Source: Henckelia pumila
Lineage: Eukaryota; Streptophyta; Magnoliopsida; Lamiales; Gesneriaceae
Reading direction: 5' to 3'
NCBI RefSeq assembly: GCF_033568475.1
Contig: NC_133121.1
Coordinates: forward strand, 4,030,001 to 4,094,000
Length of the DNA: 64,000 nucleotides
Part shown: positions 2,232 to 35,624 of the stretch, piece after piece
Layout of the letters: each line of letters opens with the position of its first letter
Numbering within the stretch: position 1 is the stretch's first letter
Translations under genes and position numbers: made by a program
Notes under the pieces: generated by a model
What the model saw: the letters and a program-made list of their open reading frames with translations, nothing else
Told to the model about the DNA's origin: nothing
Database searches by the model: none

Positions 2232-3473
2232 ATTTGTGGTGGCCAATTAAGAAAGAAAAGAAAATCATCACTATCTAGATCAAAATATATATATTTAGAT
2301 GGGGAGGAGCTGAAATTAAGAAACGGGATACAAGTACCGGGAAATCTTATATCAATATCCTTATGATAATGTACGTATTCATTAATTAATTATTCTTTCT
2401 ATTCATTTGATATATTAATTAATTCGTAAAAAAATTAATTTGTCTTGGCTTTGTAACATTGATGCCCGAAAATTTGATCAATGAAAGATTTCTCTTATTC
2501 TATTATTTTACATTACCTTTTGCTTGTTTGGCGCGGGTGCTAGCTAGATCGAATGACCCGATGACCACGCAATTGAATTAATAAATAAATAAATTATTGA
2601 GTTAATACTACACACCCGAAATTTGAAATATTTTTCTACAATTTGGTTCCTGGTCAATTTTTAGCCTCAAAATATTAATTCATGACATGTTTTGTCTCAA
2701 AATATCTGGTGAATCAGTACTCGCTTATAAACTACACAAATATATGTCTTAATTCCCGATTTAAACAAGATTACAAAATGCATGATAATAAAGTAGAAAA
2801 CTAAAAACCACTTGCAAACTGTGATAAAATTGGTGATCATGAGGTTTTTGATCTAGTGTGAGTGGGGGTGTAACTGTGTATGTTGGGAATGCAATCAAAG
2901 TCTTATTAAAAATATCAAGAGGAAGATCATGAGTTAAAAAAAAAAAAAGATTGAATGATATATTCATTAATACTAGGTCACTTGAGTGAAGTCCAAGAAC
3001 AAATCTATGAGCGTTTAGACCCAAAGATGGGGTTCCTTTGCACAACAGTCTTAAGAATATTCTTCTTTTGGAAATATTTTAATTTTATGTAAATTTTCGG
3101 TAACTTTAAAATATGGTGGTTCTATGGATATTTATACTACACAAAAAACTCCTCTGAATTGGTCTGACGAGTCAATTTGATGTTTTATTTGGGTCACCCA
3201 TGAAAAATATTACTTTTTATGTCAAATATAGATAGGATTGATATGTTTCTCTTATAAAGATTTATGACACCGTATCACAAGAGATCTACTGTTTAAACGG
3301 GTAAATGAACGGTGAGATATTAATTTAGTTTCAAATTCCATTTATCTATCTGTTATGTATCCATCGGTCAATATTGAGTCATTGACCATTGCTATCTTGC
3401 AGTTTAGGGAAATTATGGATTTTCCAACCTAACCCGGAAAAATGTTTGTTTTTAAAAGAAAAAGAAAAAGAAA

Positions 3474-3507
<34 letters not shown>

Positions 3508-4317
3508 GAAAAAGTGATCATATTTTGGAAGAATGACATATATAAAGGTCTGATAGTTGAAAATAGAAATGTGAAGGATTTAAAATGCAATTTCATTGAG
3601 TAATTTTATATGAATGCAAGCGATCGTGTCTGGAGAGTAGGGACGTGAACGAAACAAGGTGCTCACAGGTCATTGAGAGTTCCGCTAGATATAAAGCTCA
3701 TTCGACATCGTTGATTAAACTTATCAAGTCAAGACTGAACTTCATCGACCTCGAGACAAACTTCAAAGATACTCTCCTCTTGAACTCGTTAAAATGTTTG
3801 TTTAAAAACTCGCGAGCTCGAGTCCATCTCGCTTACTATCCATCTCGCTTACTATCGCGAGATATTAGTTTATAAATTTCCATTCTATTGTATGCTCGAA
3901 CTCGATTCTATATCAAAATCGAGTTCTATTATATGCTTAACTAGTTCGAAAATAAACCCATTTAACGAGCCCGGTGTAAGCCATTTGCAATCCTTGAAAT
4001 TTCAAGATGAGCCGGACTCGAACATCATATTGTTTGGTTCGATTTGGTTCTTTTACATCAACCACAGGTTGGTTGATCTTTTCACACATCTACGAGGACA
4101 AACAAAAGTTCGAAAGAAGATGTAACGAGTACAACTTGTATCCAAAGCGCAAAACTCCACAAAGCTCCGTATTTCTTCGCATTTTTTACACACAAAGATG
4201 GAACCATTTCACCAGCAGTATTATTGGCACACGTACGATCAAGAACACTGCCATACCAAGATAAAAATCATGCTTGCACATATTCATATCACACACAGAT
4301 AATAGTCGAAGAGATCT
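2232..4317. other. Intergenic DNA between the OCTOPUS-like and LDIP-like genes
   Basis: Nothing gene-like is visible. It includes an A/G simple repeat (3455-3500). From about 3640 to 4110 there is a stretch with 'cgagctcgag' and 'gttcgatttggtt' strings, of the kind found in old plant hAT-like repeats, but I could not find its ends. Confidence 0.5.
3455..3500 (+). repeat. (GAAAAA)n microsatellite
   Basis: About seven tandem copies of the hexamer AAAAAG run into a pure A tract. Confidence 0.9.
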
Positions 4318-7248
4318 TCAATCGGCTTTTTTGGATGCATTTTGGTCTGGGGAATACCGAGTATTAGAGTACGATGAAACTGCAGAACCCGTAATGTAGA
4401 AGAAACGTTTTCCAAGACCGAAGCTTTTCTTAGCTGCCAGCCACAAGGTCCAAAAGAATCCAATCCAACCTGTTTATAGAATGAACAATGAGTATGGATC
4501 AATGCACTGTAAAATTCTCGGGCGAAAAGAAATGGAAAAGAAAATCATTACGAAGATTCGCTTACATTAAAATACGAAGGATATTGCTGTAACGTCTTAA
4601 ATTTGATTACAGTATTAAGCCAAGTGTTGCCTAATGTAAGATCTGACATGTTCTGTGTGGTCCTATGATTTAATAACCCTGATTGTATGCTCTACAGTGA
4701 TCTCATATGTGGCGTGTAAGCGATATTTTTTTTCTTAATAAACCTGGTTGTATGCTCTAGAATGCAAGAGCTAGGACTTGTGTACATAAATCTCAACATC
4801 ATCTCCTTCCTCCTACAATCAAAACAACGTATTGTCTTGATCGATTGTCCTTACTGTCATCCAAATTTATGTTTTCTCCCTCAAGAGTATGAAACTAAAA
4901 TGGTGGGTAACACTGTGTCCAACATTTTGGAAATAAATGAATGAAAATATATACAAAAACTTATACTCGAATTAAAAAGTTAAAATACAAATCTGCAATA
5001 TGTAGTGGTCATGTAATTGAGTTGCTCATTTTTCAGAATCTGAAGATGCTTCTTCATGAACTTCATTGGACTGTAATAAAAAAACAATAGATGGTGGTTT
5101 TAAACTCTCTCACATTCTATTTGCCATTTTTTGAAGATGGTTACTGTAGCAATATACCCTTTTATCCTGAAACAACAAGAGCAGTTAAGGGTTTCTAAGT
5201 TGGCTGTAAGTCGAATAAATAATGTAAGTGAAGGACCTAAAACGTGGTGATGAAATGCACAAAGTACTTACTTTTCCACACAACCAGTTGTCCCCACCCC
5301 GAAGAATCCCAATACCCATTTCCTCTTATCGAGGTTTTTGAAAAGCTAGAGAGGTCAGTATCCTATCACACGATAACATGCATCTCTGAACTGATTAAGG
5401 GTTTCTAAGTTGGCTGTCAGAAAGTAACATACTATTGACGCCACAATGACTGGGAGAAAGGGCTAACTTAACCTATTTCAAATTTATGCGATTTTTCCAA
5501 CCATAATCTACCCAGGAGTAAAGAGGATCAATAGTTAATATCATATGAAACAGCCATCTGCAAAATTACCATTCTCACTTTCCGAAATGCTTAGTACAAG
5601 GTATATAAGCTCACGGTATTCAAGAGAGGGCCTACTCATCTTCCCAAGTTTTCTTCATTCTATTTCTTAAGCAAGATGGAAAGAATGCGAATAACGTCTA
5701 GCAAAGGCCAAATATAGTAGCCGATCAACACATCAGAAAATGCATACAAGACTTCTGCCAGGTGCCATTAGCTTTGTTCAAATTAATTTTAAAGATAACA
5801 AAAACAGAATTGTCTCAGTACCTGTAGCAATAAGAACAGCAATAACTGCGGTAACTGTAGTAGTAGAAATAACAAACACCGCCACCGCTAATGCCCCAAC
5901 ATAAATGGCTGCAACACAGGTAAAGAATAGAGCCAAGAATCCTCCTGCTGCTGCTAAAGACATAAGAAGAGAAATGACAACAGCATTGAAGGTTGCTGCA
6001 ACAAAGAAAAGGAGAAAGACCGACAATCCTGTCAAGGAGAGAAGTGCAATTGTCCCAACCTGCAGCAATTTAGTATCCCAGAAAGAAAACATCAAACCAA
6101 GTAAACCAACAAATTTTAAAAGTAATGGAACATTTTTTTTTTAACAAAAAGACAAAACAATAGGGAACAGGAGTTTAAGGGGACTACAACGTTTATATAT
6201 GTAGCTGGAACTCAGGTACTTTGAGGGGAATTGAGCCTTTCCTCTAAGAAAGTACAAATGTAATCAAACCAAGGAAAGTCAAGATGAAAACTTTCACATG
6301 GATTAAATCTAACATATTAGCACCAGCTCCAGAATAAAGCTTATCATAAGCTTGCATATTGAATGAAGCTATGAAAAATACCACAAAGCAAATATACATA
6401 AGCATTAGTCATACGCCAGGACAGGCTAATCTTATTATCTCATTTAAATATTAATGCACTTCTTGTTTCTGGTTTGTGGCATCAGATAATATCATAATAA
6501 TAACACAGAGATAATAAATTGAAACATATGAATAAGAGAAGGATATTGCAGAAGTCGAGCCAATCGTTGGATGAAATAAGGGTGTGAACACAATAAACTG
6601 TTGGGTTGTTAAATGATAAGGTTTTTAGCATATACCGATCTACAGTATTAAAAGCTTTAGATTAGTAAAGTAGTTATTTTTACTAAAAATTGAACGAGTA
6701 CAGCAAAACAGATTAGAGGGTAGTGGAGTAATTGGAGCGGCAATCTGATTCAATTAATGAAGCGATAGTCAAAAGATCATCAACCACGGGCTAAGGGAGT
6801 AGTAAAACGCAACGAACCCATTTTCTTTCTGAGAACGAAAATCACGAGTTTTGATAGCTGCTTACTAGAAAACAGCAATACAATCAGTGAATTAAGCTAG
6901 TTAAACAATAATAGCAGCAGAAAGAATGCTTAGGAAAAATATACTCACGGAGATTACGAAGAGTGCGCGGAGTGGGGTGCCGCGGCGAGTCCAGGCGAGA
7001 ATATGGCGAGCAGTGTTGGTGGACGCGTCGCGAAGCAGAGGAACATTATCGGAGAGCGAGGCTTTGATCCTCTGAAGCAGGGGTACCGAAGCGTACCCAG
7101 AATCCGAATCGGGGAAGAAGATGGCAGCAATCAAACGGTTGGCAATAGTGTAGAGAGTCAAATCCCCTGCTTCTTGTTCACTGTCTCGAGCATCTTCATC
7201 CCCAATATAGATCCCATTGAGCGTCTTCGCCTCATCGTACTCCGTCAT
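4318..7248 (-). CDS. LDIP: LDAP-interacting protein (LDIP)-like membrane protein
   Basis: Three minus-strand exons: 7248-6949, 6059-5822 and 4469-4318. They join in frame at GT-AG introns to give 229 residues. The soluble N-terminal part (about 1-90) contains ANRLIAAIFFPDSDSGYASV and LLRDASTNTARHILAWTRRG. A long hydrophobic stretch of repeated small residues follows (about 92-195: VGTIALLSLTGLSVFLLFF, LMSLAAAGGFLALFFTCVAA, then GWIGFFWTLWLAAKKS), and a polar tail ends in ASKKAD. Length and architecture match plant LDIP, the endoplasmic-reticulum and lipid-droplet protein that recruits lipid-droplet-associated proteins and supports droplet formation. The identification is from memory of the family, mainly the WTRRG-plus-hydrophobic core. 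Intron 2 is 1.35 kb and contains a roughly 28-bp direct repeat (about 5185 and 5393). The gene looks intact. Confidence 0.72.
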
Positions 7249-26696: not shown

Positions 26697-29231
26697 ACTG
26701 GTATCAGAGCTGTTACGGTGTCTGGGAGCCTTGGTAAAAAATTTCTTAAAATTATGAGTATGCTCTGTGGTTGCAGCTTTGTCTGATCTTCCACATCAGA
26801 AAAGATTTTTTGAAATTTTATTAAGGCGGGTGAAGCGATGGCCGGAAATGACGGATCGAGACCTGGAATCAATAAGTTCGACGGTACAGATTTCACGTTC
26901 TGGCGCTTACAGATTAAAGATTATCTGTATAGCAAGAAGCTACATCAACCTCTATCCGGGGTGAAGCCAGAAAATATGGAGGATGATGAGTGGGAGCTTC
27001 TTGATTGACAAGTGTTAGGAGTAATACGATTGACCCTAACAAAGAACGTGGCACACAACGTGGCGGAGGCAAATACCACGGAGGAGATGATGTCCATTTT
27101 GTCGGACATGTACGAGAAGCCATCAGCAAATAATAAAGTGTTCCTCATGAAAAAGTTATTCAACTTGAAGATGGAGGAAGGTGCTTCGGTGGAGGCACAC
27201 ATCAATGAATTTAACACGATTATTTCCCAGCTAACATCGGTTGAAATCAAGTTTGATGATGAGATCCGTGTACTTATTCTTTTGGCGTCCTTACCAAATG
27301 CTTGGGAGCCGATGCGGGCAGCGGTTAGCAATTTTGCTGGAAAAGGAAAGTTACAATTCAATGATGTCAGAGATCGAATCCTTGGTGAAGAAGTTTGCAG
27401 GAGGGATTCGGGAGAAGCAACATCATCGAGATCTGCCCTAAATCTCGAAAACAGAAGTAGGGGCAGAAGTGCTGAAAAGAATTCTAACCAATGGCGTGGC
27501 AGATCCAAATCAAGAACTGGAAAAGACAAAAATACATTTGAAAAGAAATTGAAGTGCTGGAGCTGTGGTGAAACTGGTCACATGAAAAAAGACTGCAGAT
27601 CACCCAAAAATAATGCAAATGTTGTTACTGAGGATGTACATGATGCCTTAGTACTATCCATGGAAAGCCCGGTTGATTCATGGGTAATGGATTCGGGAGC
27701 TTCATTTCATACCACCGGTGATCGTGAGGTATTCAGTAATTACATTGCTGGTAATTACAAAAAAGTTTTCCTGGCTGATGGAAAACCGTTGGAAATAGCT
27801 GGTATGGGTGATATCAGTTTGAAAATGTCAAACGGATCCATCTGGAAGCTCAACAAAGTGAGACATGTACCAAAGTTGACCCGAAATCTGATCTCAGTGG
27901 GACAGCTTGATGACGAAGGCCATAAAGTGACCTTTGGTGATGGCTCTTGGAAAGTGAGCAAAGGAGCCATGATTATTGCTCGAGGAACGAAAACTGGAAC
28001 TCTGTACATGACTTCCAGTTGCAGAGAAATGTTAGCAGCTATGGATGCTGGAGCTAACTCAAGTCTATGACACTGTAGACTTGGACATATGAGTGAGAAG
28101 GGAATGAAGATGCTGATATCAAAAGGGAAGCTACCGGAGTTAAAAACTGTTGAACACAAGCCGTGTGAAGCTGTATTTTTTGGAAAGCAGAAAAAGGTGA
28201 GCTTTTCAAAAGAGGTTAGAGAACTGAAATCGGCGGATTTGGAGCTGGTACATACTGATGTATGTGGACCATCTCCTGTGACATCCCTTGGAGATCACTC
28301 AAGATATTATGGCACTGCTGTTGACAATTCAAGCAGAAAATTTTGGGTTTATTTTTTGAAAAATAAATCAGATGTTTATGAGACCTTTAAACAGTGGGAG
28401 TTTGCCATAAAAGATGTGATGGATTCACTGTCATCCAATCACATGTGGGAGTTGTCAGAACTTCCTAAAGGTAAAAAGGTTTTACATAGCAAGTGGGAGT
28501 ATCGGTTAGAACACGATGGTAGCAAGCGGTACAAAGAAATCCTTGTTGTAAAAGGTGAAAAAGAATTCATTGATTACACTGATATTTTCTCTCTGTGGTA
28601 AAGTTAACTACTATCAGGACTGTACTTGGATTGATGGTAAAAGAAGATTTGCATTTGGAGCAGTTAGATGTAAAAACTGTGTTTCTTCATGGTGAGCTAG
28701 ATAAAGAAATGAATCAATCACAGGGATTTGAAGTACGAGGGAAAGAGAAAATGATGTGCAAACTTCAAAAAAGCTTGTACGGTCTCAAACAAGCTCCAAG
28801 ACAGTGGTACAAGAAGTTTGATGATGTAATGAATAATGATGGTTTCCCGAGATATCATGCTGATCACTGGTGTTATGTGAAGCTTGATGGTTCTTATATC
28901 ATGCTACTGGTATATGTAGATGATATGTTGATAGCAGAAGTTTGTCTGAAGGAGATTGATAAACTAAAGATAGAATTTGCTATGAAGGATTTAGGTGCTG
29001 CAAAACAAATCCTTGGAATCAGGATCCTTAGAGATCGGGTGAATGGAGTCTTAAATCTTGAGAAGATTTCTGGAAGTAAAAATCCTGCTGATATGTTCAC
29101 GAAGGTGGTGACCACTGACAAATTGAAGTTGTGCTCGGCTTCAGTTGGACTGCAAGCATAAGAGAGGAAGAATGAGCTGTTGCATTGGCTGTGTGAAGTC
29201 ATGATTGAAATCAAGTCTTCAAGTGGGAGAT

Positions 29232-29705: not shown

Positions 29706-31884
29706 GATGTTTGTTGTGATGGGAATCATTAGCTTCATCCATTATTTCAATTGGATGGTATAATTTTTTCTTGTGATTCGGTAATTGTATTGATTGATTT
29801 ATTTTTTGTATGTATTCGTTTATTATATGCTTGTTCTTATGCTCATGTAGAGTTGGGTATTTGTTTGGTTGGATTCCGGAAAACAACGCTATGCAGTCTA
29901 TGCTCTTGTCTATTTAGCTTCCTATTTGAGGTTTGATCCTGTCTTGGGTGTTTTTTGTTGTGAAATGATTTTGGGAGATAAAATAAAAGTGCATTTGCTA
30001 TTATAGTTTATGTCAAATCATGCAAGTTTTTTTTTTGATTTATTTTGCAAGTGGTAAGAAATGAGAATGAGGTTTGCATATTCATCCAAGAAATGTTCTT
30101 GTGCTTGAACGAGCTTAACTGGGGATTACAATAATAAATATTTGCATAGATGATACGTATTTGTACTCTAAATCAACAGTCAGGACCTTCCAAGGATACT
30201 CTCTTCTTTTCCCTTGTGCTTTAAGTCTGGCCTCTGAAACTATAAACATATTACGAAATGCTCTCTTTTGCAATTAATTAATTATTTTTTAATATTCTGA
30301 GATATGCTCAAATATATTCTTACGTCTTCATGTTGCTCTCATTTTAGTCAGCGGAGAGAAGGCTTCGAAGCTTGGTCTAGACATCATTGTAAAGATCTCA
30401 AGATATACTAATGCTGCTCAGGTAATCATTGCAAAGTAATGAAACTGCAATGCCCATACCTGGTCTATCAGTTGGTATGTAGTTCTCCTACTCATGTCAT
30501 CTCAAGTTGTCCAATGTTTTATGTATATTGACTGTGGATGAGTTGGAATTCTATCGTTCTGATATCACACATGGTAAGTTTCGATGGGATATTTGGAATC
30601 CGTTCGTTGCAATGGTTCAACATGTGTAGAGGGAAGTGGTTAACTTTAACTTGAAGCATTCATAGTGGTTTGAATCTTGCACCATATTCTTGAAACAAGG
30701 TCCTGTGATATGCAAAACGTGGGCTTGTGAATGTGTTAGATAACCACAAAGTGTGTATAGATTAGATGTTCCGTGCATCGGAACATTTTCTGTTTTGGTA
30801 TCTATTTTTTGTAATTTCACAAGCTTCATTTCTAACATTCGCAAATACTGTCGAGAATTCTGCCTCAGCATTGTTCTGATATGCTTTCATGCATTTAAGT
30901 GCCTGTGGATCAATGTTTGAAGCAAAAAAAAGAATGTTTATTTCATTCCCCTTCACTTGCATTCTCAGCCATTACGAAGCAGAGAAAGTGCTAGGCCTGT
31001 TTTGCGAGTAAAACACACGTCTATATGTGCTGCTTCGCTGGTAATTATGTTGTACTGTGCTTGAGATCAGATTAACTCTTTGTCAATTGATTTTGTAATG
31101 ATGACTTTAAGAGAGGGTCTTCTCTTGTTATAGAATATCTATGTTTGGCAATAAGGGTCTCTTTTGAAACATGCAATCAATATGTTTCACATTATAGTTC
31201 TTTATGATCAGAACTTGTATATTTATTTCAAAAAACTTATGGGGCACTTTTGATTCCCTGATCAATACAAAATGTGAAATTTCTTGGAGGATGTCATAAA
31301 CTTGTTTTTCTTGCATTCTAGCACTTCTTTGTACTTCTGGGAACTTGTTCGAGGATATCAAAAGCTTGAAGCATTTTCTTGGAAGTGCATTTTTTAAATA
31401 TGTACTGATTCTTACCTTAAACCGCAGAATGCCACTTGTGCTGCACAGCAGGCACAAATAGGTACGAGGCAATCATCTACCGTTACTGTTGCACCTTTTC
31501 AATGTAATGATCCCTTCTTCATTCTCCATGCTTCATTTTGTTTACTGTCTTTCCAATTCCTTTAAAGCAGTGGTGTCTTTTCAATTTTAGATGTACTGGA
31601 GTTTATAATCGAAACCGCAGATAGCTGAGGCATTGGTTCGTCACTGCATTAATAAAAAGTGTGAGTACTCTTTGCAAGAAATATTATGTTTTCCTTGACT
31701 TTCCTATGTTTCCATGTGCTAAAGAAGAAGCTTTGCATTGTGTTTTTAATTAACACAAGCGGAAGGATGGAATCAGGAAAAAATAATTTTTGATTAAAGT
31801 TTCTCATTGTTATAAATTATTTTTTCAGGACCTGAATATAGGCGTTGCATTATGGATAGCTTCTGGAGGTGATGGCTGGCTTTA
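29706..31884. other. Inner part of the CACTA-bounded block, no intact gene
   Basis: This stretch continues the sequence interrupted by the copia element. It contains a few exon-like pieces with splice-like edges, for example about 30352-30421 (reads SGEKASKLGLDIIVKISRYT then NAAQ), about 31427-31462, and about 31836-31880. I do not recognise the source genes. There is no transposase. Confidence 0.4.
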
Positions 31885-32269
31885 TGTTAGGATCTAAATC
31901 TCCTAACAAACTCAATTGCAAATAATAACAGAGGAAAGCAGATTTACTAATAAGAAATATGAATTATAATCTGAAAAATATCCCAGCCAAGGATAGAATC
32001 CTTTTACAAGAAGAATGCAAGCACTCTCTTGCCCCTAGCCTAAGCCAGTAGAAACCCTAGCACAAGCTAGTAAAAAAAAACACAATAAACGTGAATGACC
32101 CCCATTTCCTTCTATCTTGCCTACTTTATATTCTCGCATTCTAACCCCTTTCCTCTTCTCCAAGCTATGGGTTCTAGAAGTTTCTTGACAAGTGGATAGC
32201 CCAATTTAGCAAGGCCCATGATGAAAACCCACTTTACTTATCCAGCCCATTATTCTAAAGTACCTAACA
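31885..32269 (-). repeat. LTR (3' end in element orientation)
   Basis: 385 bp, almost identical to 34929-35314, preceded by the duplication CTTTA at 31880-31884. Confidence 0.93.
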
Positions 32270-34149
32270 ATACCACCCCCTTGAAATTCAGCCTTGTCCT
32301 CAAGGCTGTGATTAAGAATGCAAGGTGCCATGGTTGTCAAAGATGCAGTATAGCATCCTCATTTCTTCCTAGCTTTGCGCCCTCTGCCATCAAAAACTCT
32401 TGTTTGGTTCGTATCCAGGATTGGATGGCTGAATTCCTTCTTTTCAGACTCACCGGTAGCTCCATAATCTTTCACCTTGACAAAATTTGAATTTGAATTG
32501 TGGAACCCTTCAATTAAACCAGGATCTGTAGATGATCCTTCCCTTGTGATATCATCAGTGACACGAGAATAATAAGCAATTGCAGCACCACCTGTCAATT
32601 GCAGCATCATCACTATTCTTACTTGCAACTCTTGAATTCTTATTTCTAGTTTTTGTTCCTCCTCCATGTTCCTTTCCAACTCAAGAATTTTTTTTGAGAT
32701 TCCTTTCTCTAGTTTTTGGCCAGCACAGTGCAGCAGACTCTCTTCATCCCAACTCAATTTCCATGCAATGCCCATCACAAAATCCACCCCTTTTTTTTTT
32801 TCAAAAGTTCTTCTACACACCCTAACTTGATACCTCATATCAGTAGGCATGTACACAATCAGCACCACCCGATGAAGCCTATTAAACAGTTGGGCTGTAT
32901 GACGCCATGGGTATATCTCATCTTGCTCACCCATGCGCTCTATGCACTCAATCCAAAAGCCAAAAAACACTTTCATTTCCCTTGCTTCTTGACGGCCACA
33001 AATGAAATGTATTTGATGGAGGTGCTCCACCTTAAAAACCAGGAAAACAGTAATGGGCTCAAAGTTGTGCTGGCCACGGATGACATACCTTCCCAACCAC
33101 AGATAATCCACATATGCAATACCACTGGCAGTGAAGAAAAATCCATATTCAACTACAAATATCATGATATCCCCAATTTTCCCTTGCCAATTCCCAACAC
33201 AGCTTGCAGCAACAATAAGTATAAACTCTTTTTCGGCTTTTAATTTTCCTTTGTCAATCTTCTCCTGTTGTTGGCTGGCTTCTCTGCTACACATGCGTCT
33301 CTGTAAAGCCACCCACTGGTTTCTCCTGCGCCCCTCTTGCTCGCTTGAGCTTGTGTTAAGGGGTTCCGATAGAATCGCCCCATATAAAGTAATACGGCCC
33401 ATCTTGTATGCCGGTCACCGGGCTTGCTGAGGAAAGACCCATATAACCCATCAAAACCTGATTGACCCAATAAATTTGAAGCTTTTTTTATTCGTTTCCT
33501 TATTCTTTGAGATGCGTGAAATTTAGAATCTGCGCCGCTCATCATACCGGCAACAAACAGGCCAATTGTTTGCGAATCTCCGGCCACATCTCGTCGACCG
33601 ATCTCATCACCTAGGCTCGCTGCTGCTTCTTCATCCTCTATCCGCGTTCTGAGTTTTGACGTAAAGGGCGATAAGCATCGGACTCGAACGGTATCTATCT
33701 TTTGGGCCCAGTGATTGGTCTGGCCCAAGTATCTTTCTAAAGCCCTAACCCACTCCTTAGTGGCCAGAGTTTCAAGCCCTAAAACCTTTAATGATAACAC
33801 GATGACATGAACAAAGACGGAGTGCTTCTGATCTTGGTGTTGCGCAGCCCAATTTAACTGGACCAATAAAATCACAAACCACTCGGTGCTCACGCCTTCG
33901 ACTCTCCGCCCCTGGAACACTGATGCACAACTCTCGTATGGTTTCTCTTTCACTTTCACCGCCTTCCACCCACTGTACCGTTCAATTAGCTCCATGGCGC
34001 TGACTCTTGGGCATCGTCCAATCCTTAATATCCCTCCCATTCCCATCGGGTCCCCTTCATCGAACTTCGTTGCTTTCACTTGCTCAACTTGTTTCTGATC
34101 TTTAATCAAATATGAAGACAGCGTTGATCCCTCGGGTTTTTTGACATCT
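32270..34149 (-). other. Remaining internal region of the LTR element
   Basis: Non-LTR interior without recognisable retroelement proteins. Long minus-strand open frames cover 33240-34149 (tail of the PDS5-containing frame) and 32359-33402 (347 codons, with a Glu/Lys-rich helix near ILELERNMEEEQKLEIRIQE). I recognise neither. They may be element-specific filler or further captured sequence. Confidence 0.5.
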
Positions 34150-34859
34150 GAAGTTTCTAATACTTTGGTTAAATACGGTCTAAGATTCTCCCCACAATTA
34201 TTCAGAACCTTCTCAGCCAATTTTTTTACATTTGGCTGAGCTTTCTCATTGTCCTGCTGCACGACAACCATAATGGGACTGAGTAAAGCTGAATTGATAT
34301 AATCACTCTCTTTTAAAACTAGAGTCATCACTGCCTCTATAGACTCCAAAATGATTTCTGATTGCACCCTTGCAGCTCTGAGAAAGTGTTGGAACATCTC
34401 AATAATTGTCTGATCCATTTCCAAATCCAACATGATCACACAATACCTGACCTTAGCCATGGTTTCGAGAATTGCTATCCTTTTGCGATAAGATCTGCTC
34501 GAAGTTTCTGCCAAGTCCTCAAAATATGATACAATCAACTGAAAAATTTCCTTCATTTTGTCATCATTATATGGAACATCTGGTGCGGTAATTCTGGTTA
34601 TCTCACTTAGGCAAGAAGCTACACTTACTCTTATATCAACATCAGAGTGCTTCATTAAATCTTCTGCTGTCAATGCCTCCATTAGTGGTGAAAGGGCAGT
34701 TAACATGGATTTGGAAGGCGATTGCTCCACTTTTGACAGAAATCCCTCAGCTCGATCTAGGAGGCAGATGAATTTATCCACAGAAATCGGAGGCTGGTAC
34801 AAAGCGAAACCCGCAGCAGCAAGCTGTTCTTCAAGGTTTTTCTCGGTTGACAGCAGCAT
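34150..34859 (-). pseudogene. PDS5 cohesin-cofactor N-terminal segment carried by the LTR element
   Basis: The minus-strand frame from 34859 opens with a segment of about 235 residues that closely resembles the N-terminus of plant PDS5 (sister-chromatid cohesion protein, HEAT repeats). Recognisable strings are LEEQLAAAG, LSKVEQSPSKSM, HSDVDIRVSVASCLSEITRI, APDVPYNDDKMKEIFQLIVS and SSRSYRKRIAILETMAKVR. The segment is uninterrupted, although plant PDS5 genes split this region with introns. It was therefore probably taken from a spliced transcript, as expected for capture during reverse transcription. Downstream, the same frame stays open to 33240 (539 codons in all), but that part has no family I know. 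Treated as a fossil passenger of the element. Any function is unproven. Confidence 0.75.
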
Positions 34860-34928
34860 TGTTGATTTACCACTCAGTTGGAAACTGGAACTCGCCTCTT
34901 CGATTCGAATCCGGCAGGTCGGACCAAT

Positions 34929-35314
34929 TGTTAGGATCTAAATCTCCTAAAAAACTCAATTGCAAATAATAACAGAGGAAAGCAGATTTACTAATAAGAA
35001 ATATGAATTATAATCTGAGAAATATCCCAGCCAAGGATAGAATCCTTTTACAAGAAGAATGCAAGCACTCTCTTGCCCCTAGCCTAAGCCAGTAGAAACC
35101 CTAGCACAAGCTAGTAAAAACAAAACACAATAAACGTGAATGACCCCCATTTCCTTCTATCTTGCCTACTTTATATTCTCGCATTCTAACCCCTTTCCTC
35201 TTCTCCAAGCTATGGGTTCTAGAAGTTTCTTGACAAGTGGATAGCCCAATTTAGCAAGGCCCATGATGAAAACCCACTTTACTTATCCAGCCCATTATTC
35301 TAAAGTACCTAACA
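34929..35314 (-). repeat. LTR (5' end in element orientation)
   Basis: 386 bp with TG...CA ends, followed by CTTTA at 35315-35319. Confidence 0.93.
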
Positions 35315-35624
35315 CTTTACGAGGGGGTGGGCGAAGTATAGGGCCGACCTGAATGCGTTTGGGCTTTGTGTGTTAAGTTCAGAATATGATTTGCATCCAT
35401 TTACTTGCATGGTTCTATGCTTTGTTCACGCCTCTGATCCCTAGTTTCTGAACTTTTTTTGTATTTTTCTATAGTGTACATTGCATTAGAATTTAATTTC
35501 GAGTGATTTTTAATATTAAAAAATTGTATATTAACTTTTATTTTTGAAATTTTAAATTTTGGTTTATTTATAATATTGAAATTTGTATATTATTTTTTAA
35601 TTTTTTTGTTTTTTATATGGAAAA

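Follow-up and report, generated by a model that had tools for sequence, protein, structure and literature searches.

Captured and additional reading frames in plant LTR elements

Several described long terminal repeat (LTR) retrotransposons resemble the subject of this report, an element called W that occupies positions 31885-35314 of a 64,000-nucleotide stretch of Henckelia pumila DNA (the window) and carries a fragment of a host PDS5 gene. Other loci of the same genome are given L numbers (L012 and L034 are the same genomic place), and C1, C2 and C4 are contig labels for positions in Mb within it.

The maize element Bs1 is an LTR element with a hybrid frame containing transduced parts of a plasma-membrane ATPase gene and other exons (PMC13317346), and its captured parts are described as exons only (PMC4717578). 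W likewise has intronless host exons in sense orientation between its LTRs. In contrast to Bs1, the W family has one segment of another gene, found in at least 22 places and in several diverged subfamilies, and its constraint after capture could be measured beside a neighbouring stretch that looks neutral. In orchids, Ty3/Gypsy elements carry an AlkB-type m6A demethylase domain, which is a host-type domain kept through subfamily splits (PMC9289625). Their product is an RNA-modifying enzyme whose activity is reported for the purified protein (PMC9289625), whereas the W family has a fragment of a cohesin regulator, recognised by its sequence, within a small element that lacks a recognised pol.

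Terminal-repeat retrotransposons in miniature (TRIMs), for example GmaRetroS15, are similar to W in being small and in having 5-bp target-site duplications (TSDs), exon-only fragments and several copies. However, their description gives lengths of 1,172-1,449 bp and reports no conserved frame (PMC4717578), whereas W is a 3.4-kb element with a 235-codon frame under selection. The additional open reading frames (ORFs) of Retand, Grande and RIRE2 are kept across each family, and their role is described as not established (PMC7264820). The PDS5 segment is comparable in that it recurs across diverged copies under purifying selection, with many single copies broken. The W frame has a host parent gene and a sense-oriented position at the 5' end, whereas those ORFs are antisense, occupy the space from pol to the 3' LTR and are mostly of obscure origin (PMC7264820).

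For rice and sorghum, there are earlier reports of selection acting on captured sequences (PMC13317346). In comparison, the constraint in the W family is placed on element branches after what is best read as one capture, and a control stretch lies within the element itself. LTR elements with host exons and selection on captured sequences were thus known before, and a search of one literature collection, by title and opening of the abstract, revealed no instance of PDS5 captured by an LTR element.

A spliced PDS5 segment in a recently inserted element

W is a complete LTR element of 3,430 bp whose sense strand is minus (Table 1). It has two LTRs with TG..CA ends (TGTTAGG...CCTAACA), a TSD, a primer site complementary to a tRNA and, as judged by sight, a polypurine tract, which are hallmarks of LTR retrotransposons. 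Comparison of the LTRs at 385 sites revealed one transition, one transversion and one indel (Kimura two-parameter distance, K2P, 0.0052). At a rate of 1.3e-8 per site per year, this distance corresponds to about 0.2 million years. No pol domain (reverse transcriptase or integrase) was detected by Pfam scans of ORF1, its two parts and ORF2, and W is a non-autonomous LTR retrotransposon without recognised pol.

Residues 56-258 of ORF1 match positions 3-205 of the 1053 positions of the Pfam PDS5 family, PF20168 (E 6.5e-44). The top solved-structure match by sequence is a PDS5 chain, 5frp (E 5.3e-18). W does not encode a full-length PDS5, as only about the first fifth of PF20168 is present. The kleisin-binding part of PDS5 is in the four fifths that are missing from the fragment. 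A single-sequence structure model of ORF1, intended as a check of the HEAT-repeat fold, had a mean pLDDT of 38.7 and was not used.

The nearest host PDS5 gene is L035 (C1:45.86 Mb), from which W differs by a dN of 0.20 and a dS of 0.64 (nonsynonymous and synonymous divergence). The homologous stretch of L035 is divided among five exons by four introns, located after LLD, MK, IR and NN. Alignment with these exons and introns established that all four introns are missing from the element segment, so its source was a spliced transcript. By eye, three elements leave PDS5 at the same point (LETSD in W, IKTSD in L034 and LKTIE in L032), and the host counterpart, LKTSD, is inside an exon. A preliminary description of the window, made from its letters, had proposed an LTR element with an exact TSD and near-identical LTRs, a long open frame, and a sense-oriented PDS5 N-terminal stretch of about 235 codons captured from a spliced transcript. 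All of these features are borne out.

An old capture followed by divergence into subfamilies

A DNA search with 34150-34928 returned 23 matches, consisting of W, two copies that are 97-98% identical, 17 places that are 69-75% identical and three pieces of L035. A Pfam search of the genome gave 48 matches and added two more places that bear the segment. The PDS5 segment is present in at least 22 places, W included, and these search counts are lower bounds. The LTR family also occurs elsewhere in the genome (Table 1). This agrees with the preliminary description, which had proposed a search for other copies with the LTR and its passenger.

Two LTRs were seen in 10 of the 22 places; the remaining 12 were covered in part or show partial repeats alone (L033). 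Self-comparison revealed both LTRs in W, L032, L034, L071, L072 and L073, and flanking LTR matches did so at C4:219.72, C2:38.32 (where one LTR is shortened), C2:109.33 and C2:46.07 Mb. LTR identity in the six self-compared elements is 90.7 to 100%, with an exact TSD in W and L034 only. At least three subfamilies hold copies with LTR identity of at least 97.6%.

A 14-nt primer-site word, allowing up to two mismatches, is present in 16 of the 19 places scanned (L021, L025 and L026 lack it; L016, L022 and L058 were outside the scan). By eye, 15 of these 16 places have an ATG close to the position of the host start codon, and L017 has ATA instead. The leader contains GCAACCA, also by eye, in 10 of the 16, and is missing in the W subfamily, L071, L019 and L027 (one letter off). 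Homology to W continues beyond codon 265, where PDS5 ends, at 13 of the 17 loci scored outside the W subfamily. The exceptions are L016, L017, L027 and L029, and L071 and L058 were outside this test.

In a protein tree of 30 rows, all 21 element rows lie on one side of a branch that separates them from nine host PDS5 rows. This branch has support of 92/91 and is present in 93% of 200 bootstrap trees. Host L035 joins next to the element clade on a short branch (0.041), at an open fork that also holds a second host group. A common element node fits 13.3 lnL units better than a tree in which all subfamilies join at L035, at the cost of two extra parameters. Since the split from L035, the W lineage has accumulated about 2.0 neutral-scaled changes per codon and the host branch 0.38. 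This roughly fivefold difference suggests faster mutation in the retroelement lineage than in the host.

Alternately, each subfamily might have acquired PDS5 independently, from the host gene or from paralogs since lost, in which case the constraint on the segment would have been imposed in the host. By dS, W is closer to L035 than to any of the 17 copies outside its subfamily (0.69-1.61), the support for the element clade is not decisive, and the primer-site word is absent from three scanned places. However, the primer site and ATG start held in common, and the homology that continues past the PDS5 end, speak against this. In addition, the short host branch contrasts with about 1.3-2.4 neutral-scaled changes per codon in element lineages beyond their common node, and neutrality is rejected even with the host gene as the attachment point of all subfamilies, as described in the next section. 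Repeated recapture is therefore quite unlikely. The best reading is that the insertion of W is young, and that the capture of PDS5 is old and happened once. The preliminary description had called the element very young, which holds for the insertion but not for the capture, in view of the number of places, the deeply diverged subfamilies and the dS to the host.

Purifying selection on the captured segment

Pairwise comparisons of the PDS5 part were made among 21 rows (W, 19 other element copies and host L035). Between W and the 17 copies outside its subfamily, dN/dS is 0.19-0.52. Examples are L015, at 0.30 (confidence interval, CI, 0.20-0.45; differences at codon positions 66, 43, 101), and L012, at 0.34 (CI 0.23-0.49). 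The median among the 179 pairs with dS of 0.1-1.5 is 0.33.

A codon model of the 235 codons, covering 16 of the 22 element places and four of the nine host genes, gave dN/dS (omega) of 0.16 for host branches, 0.17 for the stem, 0.34 for internal element branches and 0.43 for element tips. The host value is rough, with saturated outgroup branches of which one is at the upper bound, and a five-class fit gives 0.12. Fixing omega at 1 on internal element branches is rejected (2dlnL 86.8), and still costs 2dlnL 86.2 if the subfamilies are all attached at the host gene. The branches of the W lineage have an omega of 0.385 (2dlnL 16.6 against 1). For W, L012 and L015, which are elements with LTR identity of 97.6-100%, omega is 0.317 (2dlnL 63).

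The sequence adjoining PDS5 served as a control. In seven element rows, codons 266-430 have an omega of 0.91, indistinguishable from neutral (2dlnL 0.5 against 1), whereas the PDS5 part of the same rows has 0.41 (2dlnL 70). The median pairwise dN/dS downstream by the NG86 method is 0.63 (70 pairs), which is lower than the codon-model value, so mild constraint might also act on this stretch. The downstream nucleotide alignment, in which W is about 60% identical to L032 and L034, has only 374 of 581 and 176 of 549 columns in register, and misalignment may therefore also raise omega there. These results show that the PDS5 part is held as a protein by purifying selection after capture, next to a stretch that looks neutral. 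Of the parts of these coding-poor elements that were tested, PDS5 alone was found to be constrained at the protein level.

The segment could instead be a passive passenger, that is, a functionless piece of a transduced gene whose frame is open only because the element is young. Host-gene capture by LTR elements is common (PMC7264820; PMC13317346), most other copies contain stops or frameshifts, and a young copy with a broken frame, L034, has moved. A passenger would not be expected to show omega of 0.3-0.4 after capture, with omega of 1 rejected in the tests above, while adjoining sequence in the same seven rows is indistinguishable from neutral. Moreover, in simulations in which the W segment drifted neutrally by 0.49 changes per site, a mean of 7.3 in-frame stops arose in the 235 codons, and none of 300 runs was free of stops. 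We consider the passive passenger unlikely.

Another explanation operates at the nucleic acid level. Host-like sequence might shield the element from silencing or, as the preliminary description had suggested, might yield small RNAs against the parent PDS5 gene. The parent is a gene for a cohesin factor, the segment is in sense orientation, and conflict of this kind is discussed in a review (PMC13317346). Among 656 in-register 21-nt windows, 83 have at most two mismatches to host exons. In contrast, W and the host exons have none of 685 21-mers in common, and their longest identical run measures 19 nt. Selection on the DNA itself would also not spare synonymous sites, which are strongly diverged both from the host and from other subfamilies. 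An RNA-based role is accordingly very improbable, and the proposal of small RNAs is left weak. The preliminary description had also raised the possibility of a dominant protein fragment. A role at the protein level fits better than small RNAs, given the free divergence at synonymous sites and the constraint on amino acids, and the molecular role itself can only be proposed.

Possible role of the PDS5 fragment

Long retention as a working protein after capture suggests that the elements use the PDS5 fragment. We consider it fairly probable that there was one old capture, since kept as an element-encoded protein (PDS5-N) that would act on WAPL or cohesin during retrotransposition. In a single ancient event, an LTR element whose primer site matches tRNA-Tyr would have acquired the 5' portion of a spliced host PDS5 mRNA, beginning near the start codon and ending midway through a host exon. 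The piece would have been inserted after the primer site and leader, at a position that other N-terminal sequence occupies in relatives lacking PDS5. The computation shows that the element has since diversified into several subfamilies.

The LTR would then drive a protein with HEAT repeats and the YSR-binding loop, but without the rest of PDS5 that binds kleisin. The YSR motif of WAPL binds the AP[D/E]AP loop of PDS5 (PMC10656103), and the motif is described elsewhere as well (PMC8198109). The pattern AP..PY is kept in 19 of the 22 places, with L019, L027 and L058 as exceptions. Perhaps PDS5-N binds WAPL or another partner with a YSR motif, either as a decoy that competes with PDS5 for WAPL or as a tether that holds the element to WAPL-bound cohesin. 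Binding of this kind might favour retrotransposition, through looser cohesin or through delivery of the element to chromatin. The mobility of Ty1 is higher in yeast cohesin mutants, and separase binds Ty1 integrase (PMC4378997), so cohesin is a plausible target. In Arabidopsis, PDS5 proteins limit domains that resemble topologically associating domains (PMC11519323). More specifically, but only tentatively, the stolen kleisin-free PDS5-N might compete for WAPL and other YSR-motif proteins and so alter cohesin on chromatin in a way that aids integration.

Several observations weigh against the proposal of a retained PDS5-N protein. Stops occur in 13 of 19 other element rows within the aligned part, nine of them in PDS5 codons 31-265, and several further copies have frameshifts. 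L034 has identical LTRs yet has a stop at codon 62. Recent pairs in the W subfamily are uninformative (omega 0.48, CI 0.12-2.48, and 0.45, CI 0.20-1.18). The strict AP[D/E]AP loop is present in 11 of the 22 places, and W (APDVP) is not among them. The support for the element clade falls just below the strong (starred) threshold of the tool. As to the partner, the report on the loop describes the YSR-loop contact in only one of five human models, finds the N-terminal WAPL motif of yeast dispensable for release, and has no prediction for yeast of a contact between the WAPL C-terminal domain and PDS5 (PMC10656103). The Ty1 result concerns cohesin and separase rather than PDS5 (PMC4378997).

The broken copies indicate that the product need not come from every copy, and selection may act on source copies. 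Of the three copies in the W subfamily, L011 has a frameshift, and in W and L010 the frame runs through PDS5 without interruption. Because L034 moved recently with a broken frame, help in trans is likely, and PDS5-N would act partly in trans.

Organization of W and related elements

Features of W are listed in Table 1.

Table 1. Features of element W and its flanking duplications (window coordinates)
Feature	Position	Strand	Basis or remark
TSD, left copy, CTTTA	31880..31884	.	exact 5-bp match to 35315-35319
3' LTR	31885..32269	-	self-comparison; 41 LTR matches in genome, W's own two included
Polypurine-like tract AAGGGGGTGGTAT, adjoining 3' LTR	32270..32282	-	by sight; L032 has a similar purine-rich end
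ORF2, 351 codons	32359-33414	-	frame list; 351 aa at 32362..33414; no Pfam match
ORF1, 565 codons	33240-34937	-	frame list
ORF1 remainder after PDS5, element module, core GGILRIGRCPRVSAMELIERYSGWKAV	33243..34142	-	partly common to relatives without PDS5
Captured intronless PDS5 N-terminal segment, 235 codons	34143..34847	-	PF20168; host exons and introns; purifying selection
APDVPY, at place of PDS5 AP[D/E]AP loop	34569..34586	-	one residue off strict consensus
ORF1 ATG, near place of host PDS5 start codon	34860..34862	-	alignment to host gene
Primer binding site, 23-nt complement of tRNA-Tyr 3' end with CCA	34904..34926	-	matches genome tRNA loci
5' LTR	34929..35314	-	self-comparison
TSD, right copy, CTTTA	35315..35319	.	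exact 5-bp match to left copy

The remainder of ORF1 has no Pfam or PDB match. The preliminary description had asked whether it derives from another gene; no such gene emerged from the Pfam scan, and part of the stretch recurs in relatives without PDS5. A protein search with the corresponding module of L032 gave 27 matches, some of them in elements with no PDS5 in the frames there (L078, L079 and L080). L078 is 93% identical to the L032 module over 614 aligned bases and differs in its N-terminal part, and L079 and L080 share with the module a short core around MGW..RI.R.P...ELI.RYSG.K.V. Because relatives without PDS5 share the module, PDS5 occupies the place where they have other N-terminal sequence. 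L078 and L032 represent a modular swap, perhaps via template switching.

Small elements that carry Gag constitute the TR-GAG type. The module looks Gag-like by eye only, and neither Pfam scans to E 10 nor a PDB profile search found a Gag match. The tail of ORF1 (codons 471-565) has dN/dS of 1.4 and 1.6 between close copies, which indicates no constraint, and 0.40 for the distant L024. The 565-codon length of ORF1 carries no functional claim in itself. The 32270-33239 part, which overlaps ORF2, has full-length DNA matches only in two close copies, with partial ones elsewhere. No autonomous partner was found; paired LTR matches enclose at most about 5.8 kb in a list that is a lower bound.

The primer-site sequence TGGTCCGACCTGCCGGATTCGAA lies two bases internal to the 5' LTR of W. 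A 22-nt pattern of the tRNA-Tyr end occurs in eight places in the genome, one of which is the primer site of the close copy at C4:219.72 Mb. ARAGORN assigned four such tRNA loci to one tRNA-Tyr (GTA), one tRNA-Thr and two tRNAs without resolved identity, and Rfam called a tRNA at both loci submitted. Copying of the primer usually stops after 18 nt, at the modified A58 of the tRNA. Complementarity extends over 30 nt in L010 and 23 nt in both W and L011; several others have 18 nt and some have less. The site of L010 (C4:219.72 Mb) looks like the product of reverse transcription that went past this stop into the primer tRNA.

Two other arrangements were observed among the relatives. The PDS5 parts of L071 (C2:97.75 Mb) and L058 (C2:46.08 Mb) are almost identical although far apart on one contig, and are either sister copies or products of segmental duplication. 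At L034, the element that bears PDS5 (2721-5683) has identical 295-nt LTRs and the TSD GAAGC. An outer pair of repeats (727-957 and 5680-5888, 82%) suggests that this element lies within or beside an older one.

Surroundings of W in the window

W is inserted 56 bp after TTTTTTCAG, which resembles a splice acceptor site (window 31829-31884 and 35320-35340). When the empty site is rejoined, it contains the frame DLNIGVALWIASGGDGWLYEGVGE followed by the donor-like site GTATAG, and the insertion may be within an exon. The protein encoded there may be an asparagine-synthase-like one. A pattern search of window 20000-64000 for further exons of a gene that W might have disrupted found nothing convincing. 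On the plus strand, 27009-29161 contains frames with a CCHC zinc knuckle and a segment like reverse transcriptase, which by eye are remains of a Copia-type element.

Implications

The single capture, the persistence of a gene of the parent type, the many diverged element lineages and the neutral-looking control stretch within the element together show that the captured part is constrained at the protein level. If PDS5-N is functional, cohesin regulation would become one of the steps open to control by a plant retroelement through a stolen part, and one could test directly why certain elements retain domains of the host.

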